Part shown: positions 1-3,619 of the stretch, in pieces
How positions within the stretch are numbered: the first letter of the stretch is position 1
How the letters are laid out: each line of letters starts with the position of its first letter
Assembly (NCBI RefSeq): GCF_006385705.1
Contig: NZ_VFRQ01000012.1
Location: forward strand, 1 to 64,000
Source: Pontibacter mangrovi
Lineage (GTDB): Bacteria > Bacteroidota > Bacteroidia > Cytophagales > Hymenobacteraceae
Length of the DNA: 64,000 bases
Direction: 5' to 3'
Made by a program: the position numbers and the translations under genes
The notes under the pieces: generated by a model
What the model was told of the DNA's origin: nothing
The model's input: only the letters and a program-made list of their open reading frames with translations
The model's database searches: none

Positions 1-74
1 TCCGAACAGAGCAGTTAAGCCCGGGCGCGCCGATGGTACTGGGGTCACACCCGGGAGAGTAGGTGGCCGCCAAC
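1..74 (+). rRNA. rrf: 5S ribosomal RNA, 3' part
   Basis: The window opens inside a 5S rRNA gene. The stretch with GTTAAGCCC, GATGGTACTG and GGAGAGTAGG is the conserved second half of 5S rRNA in sense orientation. The 5' part lies before the window. A strong terminator follows directly, as expected at the end of an rRNA operon. Confidence 0.93.
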
Positions 75-83
75 CCCAACAAG

Positions 84-1884: not shown

Positions 1885-1887
1885 CAG

Positions 1888-2149
1888 AACTCATATCTTA
1901 GAATCATTCAGAAAGAATACAAGTAAAACAGGTAAGGAACCACAGGCAGGATGGCAAAAATACCTCAGAGCAAGTACACCATGGGTGATACTGAAAAAAA
2001 GGGAGTTCCACCTGCCTGCTGCTTCCCTGAAGCTGAACAGTACTTACAGACATCTCGCCTCAAGGGATGATCTTGCATAAGACCATGAGAAAAGTTTTGG
2101 GAAGAGCATCGGTTTCAAGTCTTTTTTACATCTCTTAACATCACAGGCC
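1888..2149 (+). ncRNA. Candidate bridge RNA in the IS110 left end
   Basis: This non-coding left end folds into two loop domains. The first is closed by a perfect 8-bp stem (CAGGCAGG 1943-1950 with CCTGCCTG 2011-2018), with GGAA/TTCC outside it. It holds CCTCAG (1963-1968), identical to the left target plus core, and TACTGA (1989-1994), the reverse complement of the right target. The second is closed by 2066-2074 with 2102-2110 (8 of 9 pairs). It holds TAAGAC (2078-2083), matching the element's right end plus core, and AGTTTTG (2093-2099), complementary to core plus left end with one G-U pair. The order, target loop then donor loop, is that of IS621-type bridge RNAs. Transcription is inferred. 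Confidence 0.75.
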
Positions 2150-3319
2150 ATGAAGATCATCAAGCAATCAGTAAGCGCCGACATCGCCAAAGACAAGTTT
2201 GACGCCTGCTTCTCGGTGCTCACCTCCGAGCACCGGGTGGTGGTGAAAGCCACTCGCAAGTTCGCTAACACCTCAAAAGGCTTTGCTGAGTTTGGCAGGT
2301 GGGTGAGCAAGTGGGAGAATCTCCAAGTGGAGTTGGCCGTGGTCATGGAGGCTACCGGGGTATACTATGAGAACCTGGCTTGGAGTCTGTATCAGGCGGG
2401 CCGGAAAGTGGTGGTAGTGCTGCCAAACAGAGCCAAGCAGTATACCCAGAGCCTGGGCCACAAGTCCAAGAACGATAAGCTAGACGCCAGAGCCCTGGCC
2501 CATATGGGCGCTGAAAGACAACTGGAGCCCTGGCAGCCCATGAGCCGGCAGCTCTTTTTGTTGCGTAAGCTCACGCGGGAACATGAGCAGGTCCAGCAGA
2601 TGCGCACCGAGGCTAACAACCGCCTCCATGCCGAGTCGCATTCCATGCTGGAGAGCAAGAGTACCGTAAAAAGGCTCCGGAAGACACTCCAGCTGTATGA
2701 GGCACAGCTACAGGTTATCCAGCAGGAAATAAGGGCCACCATTGAGAGTGATGCTTTGCTCAAGGCCAAAGTAGGGAAGGTCACCACCATCAAGGGAGTG
2801 GGGCTGCTGACGGCGGCCACCGTCATCGCCGAGACCAATGGCTTTGCCCTCTTCACCAGCCAGAAGCAGCTCACCAGCTACGCCGGATATGACGTGGTGG
2901 AGAACCAGTCGGGGAAACGGAGCGGCAAGACCAAGATCTCCAAGCAGGGCAACAGCCATATCAGGAGGATACTGCACATGCCCGCCTTCAATGCGGTGAG
3001 CCGAAACGTGCCGGTTTGCCGTGCGCTTTATGAGCGCCTGACGGGGAAGGGGAAAAAGAAGATGGTGGCTTACGTGGCCGTGCAGAAAAAGCTGTTGGCT
3101 CTCATCTATACTTTGTGGAAGAGAGATGAGGCTTGGCAGGAGGACAGATACCAGCAGCAAACAGAAGAGGGCATCCAAAGCCTGGAGGCCGGAGCCTCTC
3201 TTTCAGGTGTCAGCGCAGCTGACAGAAGCACAGTAGCCCCGGCAGTGGCCAGGGCTACACAAGATAAGCATCCAGTACCTGTCGGCCCGGGAGCTCTCTT
3301 TCAGGTAAGGGAAAGATAA
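2150..3319 (+). CDS. IS110-family recombinase (transposase)
   Basis: A 389-residue protein. The N-terminal RuvC-like DEDD domain shows D11 (SADIAKDKF), E67 (VVMEATGVYY) and D109/D112 (KSKNDKLDARALA). A helical spacer follows (about residues 135-205). The C-terminal Tnp20 domain has KGVGLLTAATVIAE, then SYAGYDVVENQSGKRSG with candidate catalytic Ser254, and ISKQGNSHIRRIL. In this family the enzyme uses a structured bridge RNA to recombine target and donor DNA. The frame is intact and full length, so it could be active. A tail of about 40 residues after the Tnp20 domain is low-complexity and probably not conserved. Confidence 0.93.
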   Translation: MKIIKQSVSADIAKDKFDACFSVLTSEHRVVVKATRKFANTSKGFAEFGRWVSKWENLQVELAVVMEATGVYYENLAWSLYQAGRKVVVVLPNRAKQYTQSLGHKSKNDKLDARALAHMGAERQLEPWQPMSRQLFLLRKLTREHEQVQQMRTEANNRLHAESHSMLESKSTVKRLRKTLQLYEAQLQVIQQEIRATIESDALLKAKVGKVTTIKGVGLLTAATVIAETNGFALFTSQKQLTSYAGYDVVENQSGKRSGKTKISKQGNSHIRRILHMPAFNAVSRNVPVCRALYERLTGKGKKKMVAYVAVQKKLLALIYTLWKRDEAWQEDRYQQQTEEGIQSLEAGASLSGVSAADRSTVAPAVARATQDKHPVPVGPGALFQVRER

Positions 3320-3346
3320 GAAAAAATCAACTAAAATGCTTGACTT

Positions 3347-3619
3347 TTAAGACAGTACCTTTTTTTTCAGTACGTCCTGCAGCATTTGCTTGTCCAGGCT
3401 CAGGTCTGCCACCAGCTGCTTTAGGTGCCGGTTTTCCTCCTCCAGTTGCCGCAGTTTCCTGAGCTCTGACACTCCTAAACCACCGTATTTCTTCTTCCAG
3501 TTGTAGAAGGTGGCCTCTGATACGCCCATCTTGCGGCACACTTCTGCGACAGAAACACCTGTCTCTGACTGCTTGATGGCGAAGATGATCTGCGCCTCCG
3601 TAAATTTTGATCTTTTCAT
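3347..3619 (-). CDS. IS3-family transposase OrfA (HTH)
   Basis: A 90-residue protein with a helix-turn-helix (FTEAQIIFAIKQSETGVSVA, then CRKMGVSEATFYNWKKKYGG) and a leucine-rich coiled coil (LRQLEEENRHLKQLVADLSL). The A8-type run (about 3361-3368) near its end, coding KKK, would suit programmed frameshifting into OrfB, as in other IS3 elements. The present stop comes from IS110 sequence at the insertion joint, so the last residue or two are not native. It can no longer make the OrfAB transposase. Confidence 0.88.
   Translation of the reverse strand: MKRSKFTEAQIIFAIKQSETGVSVAEVCRKMGVSEATFYNWKKKYGGLGVSELRKLRQLEEENRHLKQLVADLSLDKQMLQDVLKKKVLS

Follow-up and report, generated by a model that had tools for sequence, protein, structure and literature searches.

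Insertion sequences of the IS110 group encode bridge RNAs, and the available parts of two papers already describe these RNAs together with CT cores, the order of the two loops, an interrupted right donor guide (RDG) and long right target guides (RTGs) (PMC11208160; PMC11208158). According to excerpts of the same papers, the promoter for the IS621 RNA is reassembled where the ends of the circularised element meet (PMC11208160), and the catalytic residues of its recombinase are D11, E60, D102, D105 and S241 (PMC11208158). The use of IS3 transposase genes as the target of an IS110 element has likewise been published, for ISEc21, in the portion of that report consulted (PMC11187229).

The window (the whole 64,000-nucleotide stretch of Pontibacter mangrovi DNA that was analysed) contains an IS110-group insertion sequence with a left-end RNA. 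The reading preferred here, with a probability of roughly 0.93, is that this RNA is a bridge RNA whose guides, as corrected below, aim the element at the orfA/orfB junction of an IS3 element. The original prediction had recognised an IS110 left-end bridge RNA, with a first loop that reads the insertion site and a second loop that reads the element's own ends in the order known from IS621. The kind of RNA, the left target guide (LTG) and the first stem have stood, but new assignments, based on empty sites and relatives, were needed for the core, the target, the ends, the extent of the RTG, both donor guides and the second stem.

The element and the IS3 copy that it interrupts

The IS110 gene sits inside an IS3-family element, remnants of whose orfA and orfB lie on the reverse strand, one on each side. 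Reading frames and domain matches on either side bear out the interruption that had been proposed.

1890-3358, + strand: IS110-group element, 1469 bp with one core counted; ends from uninterrupted IS3 copies, BLAST ends of relatives and multi-copy comparisons
1890-1891, + strand: CT core, left copy; multi-copy comparisons and uninterrupted IS3 copies
2150-3319, + strand: IS110 recombinase, 389 aa, with DEDD_Tnp_IS110 and Transposase_20 domains
3339-3358, + strand: right end, containing TTG 3340-3342
3359-3360, + strand: CT core, right copy; BLAST ends of relatives, multi-copy comparisons and uninterrupted IS3 copies
1031-1889, - strand: IS3 orfB side (left target); reading frames, domain matches and comparison with uninterrupted IS3
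3361-3619, - strand: IS3 orfA side (right target TTTTTTTCAGTA); reading frames, domain matches and comparison with uninterrupted IS3

The assignment of gene 2150-3319 to IS110 agrees with its matches to both domains. As in other members of the group, a DEDD (RuvC-like) domain is joined to a Transposase_20 domain with a catalytic Ser; D11, E67, D109, D112 and S254, counted by hand, align with IS621 residues D11, E60, D102, D105 and S241. Two solved sequences only were matched, ISCro4 (9t56) and IS621 (8wt6). The non-coding DNA amounts to 260 nt before the gene, close to the 262-nt left end first described, and 39 nt after it, the long left and short right ends of the IS110-group layout. When the outer 45 nt of each end were compared for subterminal inverted repeats of the IS1111 type (about 11-13 bp), the longest exact repeat was 5 bp; the long non-coding region that follows the gene in IS1111-type elements is represented by only 39 nt, and the element falls outside IS1111.

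The position of the ends follows from comparison with relatives. At unrelated sites, the BLAST ends of relatives show the right end ACAGTAC-CT or close variants, with divergence starting directly after the CT, and most pairs in within-genome copy comparisons stop at that position, give or take a few bases. Left ends read CT-CGTAT or CT-TGTAT in multi-copy comparisons and CT-CATAT in nearer relatives. A search by pattern listed 81 elements, in six of which it recognised no right end. Of 51 dereplicated elements, 30 have ACAGTAC as the seven letters that precede the right core, 11 have ACAGTAT, 6 have ATAGTAC and 4 have other variants differing by one or two letters, a likeness that is partly built in by the tolerant pattern used to locate right ends (one change allowed from ACAGTACCT-like letters); the independent evidence is that of the BLAST ends and the within-genome copies. 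The right-side core is CT in 47/51 of these elements and CA in 4/51. The Spirosoma-type relatives L066, L082, L085 and L045 carry ACAGTAC-CA on the right and CT on the left, perhaps reflecting another core or register.

The empty site is given by IS3 copies without the insertion. One that is 90% identical (L170) reads GGCCTTAAAACT|TTTTTTTCAG at the insertion point, or GGCCTTAAAACT|TTTTTTTCAGTACATCC over a longer stretch, and six more (L172, L174, L175, L176, L178 and L179) read GCT|TTTTTC. The reconstructed site is CCTCAGAA-CT-TTTTTTTCAGTA, which is the A8G run where IS3 orfA and orfB meet. Such A-runs in IS3 elements serve programmed frameshifting. When the window flanks are joined at CT, orfA ends LKKKF* and orfB lies in another frame across AAAAAAAAG, as they do in L170. 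Because CAGTAC is common to relatives at unrelated sites, it belongs to the element; the right end shared with relatives and the 90%-identical uninterrupted IS3 together make the core CT, as in IS621. The originally proposed core, CAG, is contradicted by these ends and by the seven uninterrupted copies, which lack CAGTAC at the insertion point, and gives way to CT. The proposed target CCTCAGTA falls with it, since empty sites and relatives' ends place CAGTAC inside the element, and is superseded by CCTCAGAA-CT-TTTTTTTCAGTA.

The joined ends of an excised circle may form a promoter of Bacteroidetes type, judging from the motifs present. In the accessible part of one report, the consensus of the main Bacteroides sigma factor is TAnnTTTG at -7 with TTTG near -33, the -33 motif not having been found in Flavobacterium johnsoniae (PMC7366714). 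Joining the ends puts a right-end TTG 20 nt before a TAnnTTTG-like left-end motif in 47/49 elements (L008 and L074 left aside), a count without a shuffled baseline, and the fixed spacing may partly reflect descent. For the window, TTG 3340-3342 would precede TATCTTAG at 1894-1901 by 20 nt in the circle. The exact TAnnTTTG occurs in 19/49 elements, the window not among them; there TATCTTAG takes the place of TATCTTTG. As integrated, 12/49 elements, that of the window included, have a TTG 17-23 nt upstream of the motif, so that the RNA of the window element could also be read while the element is integrated.

A true bridge RNA might nonetheless be carried by a copy that is now an inactive, passive remnant, a reading that is unlikely but retains appreciable weight. 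It draws on the departure of TATCTTAG from TATCTTTG in the left end and on the single copy in the genome (4.88 Mb, 35 contigs), where the recombinase has no second protein match and the sole other DNA match to the element is 119 bp on contig 13, 74% identical. The host IS3 orfB is also broken elsewhere: its remnant at 1031-1857 holds two overlapping frames (127 aa and 164 aa) where L170 keeps one, so the host was damaged apart from the IS110 insertion as well. Against this, the 389-aa recombinase is open and has all five catalytic residues, and both loops, the stems and the ends are intact.

The two loops of the left-end RNA

The features assigned to the RNA are as follows.

1905-2110, + strand: putative bridge RNA, approximate extent; loops conserved in an alignment of 26 relatives, 5' end guessed from the promoter-like motif
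1943-1950, + strand: target-loop stem, 5' arm; pairs with 2011-2018, 8/8 in the window
1963-1971, + strand: LTG CCTCAGAGC; eight identities and one G-U with CCTCAGAA-C
1989-2002, + strand: RTG TACTGAAAAAAAGG; 13 Watson-Crick pairs and one G-U with CT-TTTTTTTCAGTA
2011-2018, + strand: target-loop stem, 3' arm; pairs with 1943-1950
2022-2033, + strand: donor-loop stems, 5' arms; 2022-2027 with 2099-2104, 2031-2033 with 2094-2096
2037-2045, + strand: left donor guide (LDG) ACAGTACTT; reads the right end ACAGTAC-CT, z 8.1 for own versus swapped
2048-2073, + strand: inner hairpin of the donor loop; 2048-2056 with 2064-2073, 9/9 pairs in the window, covarying
2077-2089, + strand: RDG; ATGAG 2085-2089 pairs with CTCAT 1890-1894, and ATA 2077-2079 perhaps with TAT 1894-1896
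2094-2104, + strand: donor-loop stems, 3' arms; partner of 2022-2033

The first-loop guides match the left target on the bottom strand and the right target on the top strand, as expected of the IS110 group. CCTCAG at 1963-1968 had correctly been read as the LTG, which extends to 1971, while TACTGA, present at 1989-1994, is only the 5' part of an RTG that continues through AAAAAAAGG. These portions could be found because CAGTA occurs both in the right end of the element and in the IS3 flank. In the window, LTG and RTG jointly score 22.0 of 23, which none of 2000 dinucleotide shuffles of the RNA reaches (best shuffle, 20.0); taken singly, the LTG score is reached by 34/2000 shuffles and the RTG score by 1/2000.

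Across relatives, guides were compared with their own and with swapped targets in a sample of 93 elements with both flanks, reduced to 51 by dereplication. The search was limited to the stretch expected from the donor-guide position in 49 of these, leaving aside L008 (left end not credible) and L080 (donor-guide motif not found) and retaining the row of L078, for which a wrong motif site was taken. Left guides score 6.49 of 8 on their own targets versus 5.10 on swapped ones (z 14.0, 0/100000 permutations) and right guides 5.20 of 7 versus 4.54 (z 7.6, 0/100000), with four wrong-strand or wrong-region controls flat (z -0.5 to 0.3). The fits are imperfect, 7 of 8 being reached by 25/49 left guides and 6 of 7 by 13/49 right guides. 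An alignment-column scan with no positions given, which covered 24 of the 26 aligned RNAs (two lacked a flank) and had the left guide of the window about four columns off in the alignment, placed the strongest target signals at the same two places and on the expected strands. The position-limited test replaced a weaker search for the best match anywhere in the RNA, in which, over 51 elements and 20000 permutations, the LTG score was reached 0 times, the RTG score 73 times and the right-end score 2 times, compared with 882 and 3463 for wrong-strand controls. In a 23-element subset the RTG gave 110 and one wrong-strand control 136, which is about as good; the RTG test is weak without position limits.

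Six of the right flanks (L004, L006, L014, L015, L026 and L031) share CTT(T)ATCCACA..GATTT (TTATCCACA or similar). DnaA boxes were considered for these TTATCCACA-like letters and dropped, the end of a coding sequence (IHRDL-like) being the better reading.

Both loops are closed by stems that covary among relatives, the donor stems after correction, and each stem-loop contains an internal loop, as in the RNAs of the IS110 group. The target-loop stem 1943-1950/2011-2018, already part of the original prediction, pairs at 8/8 positions and, over 49 relatives, its own halves score 26.1 versus 17.2 when swapped (z 17.3, 0/50000). For the 18 pairs of the donor-loop stems, 89.8% of cells are paired versus 62.4% in column shuffles and 37.6-51.4% in slid versions, over which the structure is favoured because it was derived from the same alignment; changes on both sides are found in 18/18 pairs versus 14.5 in shuffles. 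The window's outer donor stem forms 3/6 pairs by alignment columns and 6/6 when moved by one base, and its other two donor-loop stems pair 3/3 and 9/9. The second stem first proposed, 2066-2074/2102-2110, does form 8/9 pairs in this sequence but was rejected, as the covarying, alignment-derived donor-loop stems lie elsewhere.

The left end might instead be a mere untranslated leader or regulatory RNA, its guide matches being leftover target sequence or low-complexity coincidence. The A-rich composition of the RTG is in keeping with that reading, as is the fold of the window RNA alone, which is not unusually stable (z -1.39, 15/200 shuffles as good). It is made very improbable by the tracking of targets by guides across 49 elements with flat controls, and by a close relative at another IS3 site that has guides fitting that site. 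A search of the window against Rfam at gathering thresholds returned only a 5S rRNA and no bridge-RNA match. The partial 5S rRNA, at window positions 1-75 (Rfam), adjoins a fragment at 150-275 that reads, by eye, like the end of a tyrosine recombinase (LRYIQVLLGHRSSKTMEIYTHI).

The second-loop guides of the bridge RNA match the element's own ends. The RDG tracks the left end, with ATGAG in 19/28 CTCAT elements, ACGAG in 8/13 CTCGT elements and ACAAG in 6/7 CTTGT elements; in one CTCGT element, ACAAG replaces or accompanies ACGAG. With G-U allowed, a permissive test, a match lies somewhere in a 48-nt stretch in 45/48 elements (L008, L074 and L080 left aside, and the donor-guide position of L078 set by hand). 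The test is failed by L066, L082 and L085, three of the four elements with CA on the right side, the fourth being L045. The donor guides TAAGAC (2078-2083) and AGTTTTG (2093-2099) were rejected in favour of ACAGTACTT and ATGAG, which follow the ends across relatives. All the short matches behind the register first proposed (core CAG, target CCTCAGTA, donor guides TAAGAC/AGTTTTG and stem 2066-2074/2102-2110) do exist in this one copy, but with CAGTAC part of the element in relatives, absent at the insertion point from seven uninterrupted IS3 copies, and with other stems covarying and other guides following the ends, that register has next to no probability left. The lesson is that guides read from one copy, without empty sites, can land in the wrong register.

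Copies of the lineage and IS110 insertions in IS110 DNA

A comparison of copies had been suggested with the original prediction. Four copies have near-identical target guides (the window, two in G167 and the outer element of L140), and each of them sits within an IS3 copy, at a site that reads A(G/A)-CT-TTTTT. The G167 copies, L005 and L025 (= L137 and L136), have the guides GCCCTAAAGC and AAAAAAAGG, and the sites that they occupy in other IS3 copies read ACAG-CT-TTTTTTCC. In G173 (P. pamirensis), which counts as the same genus as the window's genome, the outer element of L140 is at CCTCAGAG-CT with guide CTTCAGAGC; in this case the similarity is 76% between the host IS3 copies and 89% between the IS110 left ends, so that separate insertions are more likely than shared descent.

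A window-like IS110 is also found with changed guides. The left part of such an element stands at two contig ends of G173 (L197 and L199), where the left target is CCCTTGCGG-CT. The guides of L197 are CCTTGCGGC (left) and GGGCATGAG (right), and the left guide of L199 is changed. L024 carries the right part of such an element, with the right target CT-CATGCTC. When the flanks of L197 and L024 are joined, the IS3 orfB frame stays open through MSRKGNCWDNAVAESFF, which suggests that the two parts belong to one copy. The guides of this window-like IS110 (L197, L199, L024) fit the IS3 orfB stretch that codes for MSRKGNCWDN. In the window's own genome, the contig-13 remnant L002 (G000:C13:17249-17367) contains GGGCATGAGG, similar to those right-guide letters.

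Outside the window, related IS110 elements are inserted in the left-donor-guide DNA (CAGTA-CT-TA) of other IS110 bridge-RNA genes. In L140 (G173:C22), the donor guide of a window-like RNA, GAACAGTA-CT, marks the exact start of a second IS110. The right end of this second element directly adjoins the IS3 flank and the rest of the outer element is missing, so this is not a simple insertion. L197 (C58) and L199 (C77) end at GGACAGTA-CT followed by the same kind of IS110 left end, and L004 and L024 (C57 and C30) start with such a right end, after which the remainder of a window-like RNA continues as CT-TACAGACATC. In L037 (C53), an element 94% identical to the second one of L140 lies at GGGCAGTA-CT-TAATG; the ATG of an IS110-like reading frame, which breaks off after 74 codons, follows 85 nt downstream. 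The left guides are AACAGTA-AT in the second element of L140, with a core letter mismatched, and GACAGTA-CT in L037, whose right guide CATTAAG fits CT-TAATG; the own donor guide of both is CAGTA-CC. With four left junctions, all from one draft genome, the sample is too small to support a statistical claim.

It is tentatively proposed, at somewhat less than even odds, that in Pontibacter the bridge RNAs of IS110 elements have become, in the course of evolution, predators of other mobile elements, in one lineage directed at IS3 signals and in another at IS110 donor guides. The window lineage would aim at constrained IS3 signals, the orfA/orfB slippery run and, in G173, the MSRKGNCWDN stretch, and the second lineage at the left-donor-guide DNA (CAGTA-CT-TA) of other IS110 elements. 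That DNA must match the victim's own end and would therefore be conserved across the clade. An insertion there would split the guide RNA of the victim, and the attackers' donor guide CAGTA-CC, having no CT core, would spare the attackers themselves.

Proposed reaction and known systems

In the proposed mechanism, the left end would encode the bridge RNA, probably transcribed from the promoter formed on circularisation. Its second loop would pair with the joined element ends ACAGTAC-CT-CATAT, and the recombinase, with its DEDD residues and Ser, would exchange strands at the shared CT. The outcome would be the element between two CT copies, with the IS3 transposase gene cut at its frameshift signal. 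Transcription, the RNA-protein complex, the reaction chemistry and present activity are what we infer; the ends, the core, the empty site, guides that follow target and donor, covarying stems and conserved catalytic residues come from the comparison of sequences itself.

The checked ends, core, target guides and donor guides for a Bacteroidetes IS110 clade are what a plasmid test needs, and the set includes a naturally long (14-nt) RTG. The targets may surprise specialists, being the frameshift signal of an IS3 and, for relatives, DNA that encodes the guides of rival IS110 elements. In the titles and abstract openings consulted, among them few subscription journals or preprints, no IS110 was found described as targeting an IS3 frameshift site or the bridge-RNA gene of another IS110.

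Among known systems, IS621, as described in the available parts of two papers, shares with the window element a left-end RNA with a target loop followed by a donor loop, a CT core, guides that read the bottom and then the top strand, an interrupted RDG and a DEDD+Ser recombinase (PMC11208160; PMC11208158). The two differ in target, an IS3 frameshift run in the window element and a REP sequence in IS621, and in the RTG, which pairs over 14 nt in the window element and 4 in IS621, although longer ones are reported for some orthologues in the same excerpts; the promoter-like motif of the window element would furthermore be of Bacteroidetes type. ISEc21, as far as the accessible part of its description goes, is also an IS110 element whose upstream non-coding RNA is aimed at a conserved segment of IS3 transposase genes, but it is directed at codons around the second D of the DDE motif, whereas the window element is directed at the orfA/orfB A-run, the two being compared by description (PMC11187229). 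At the protein level, the closest solved sequence is that of the ISCro4 transposase (PDB 9t56; E 5e-35).
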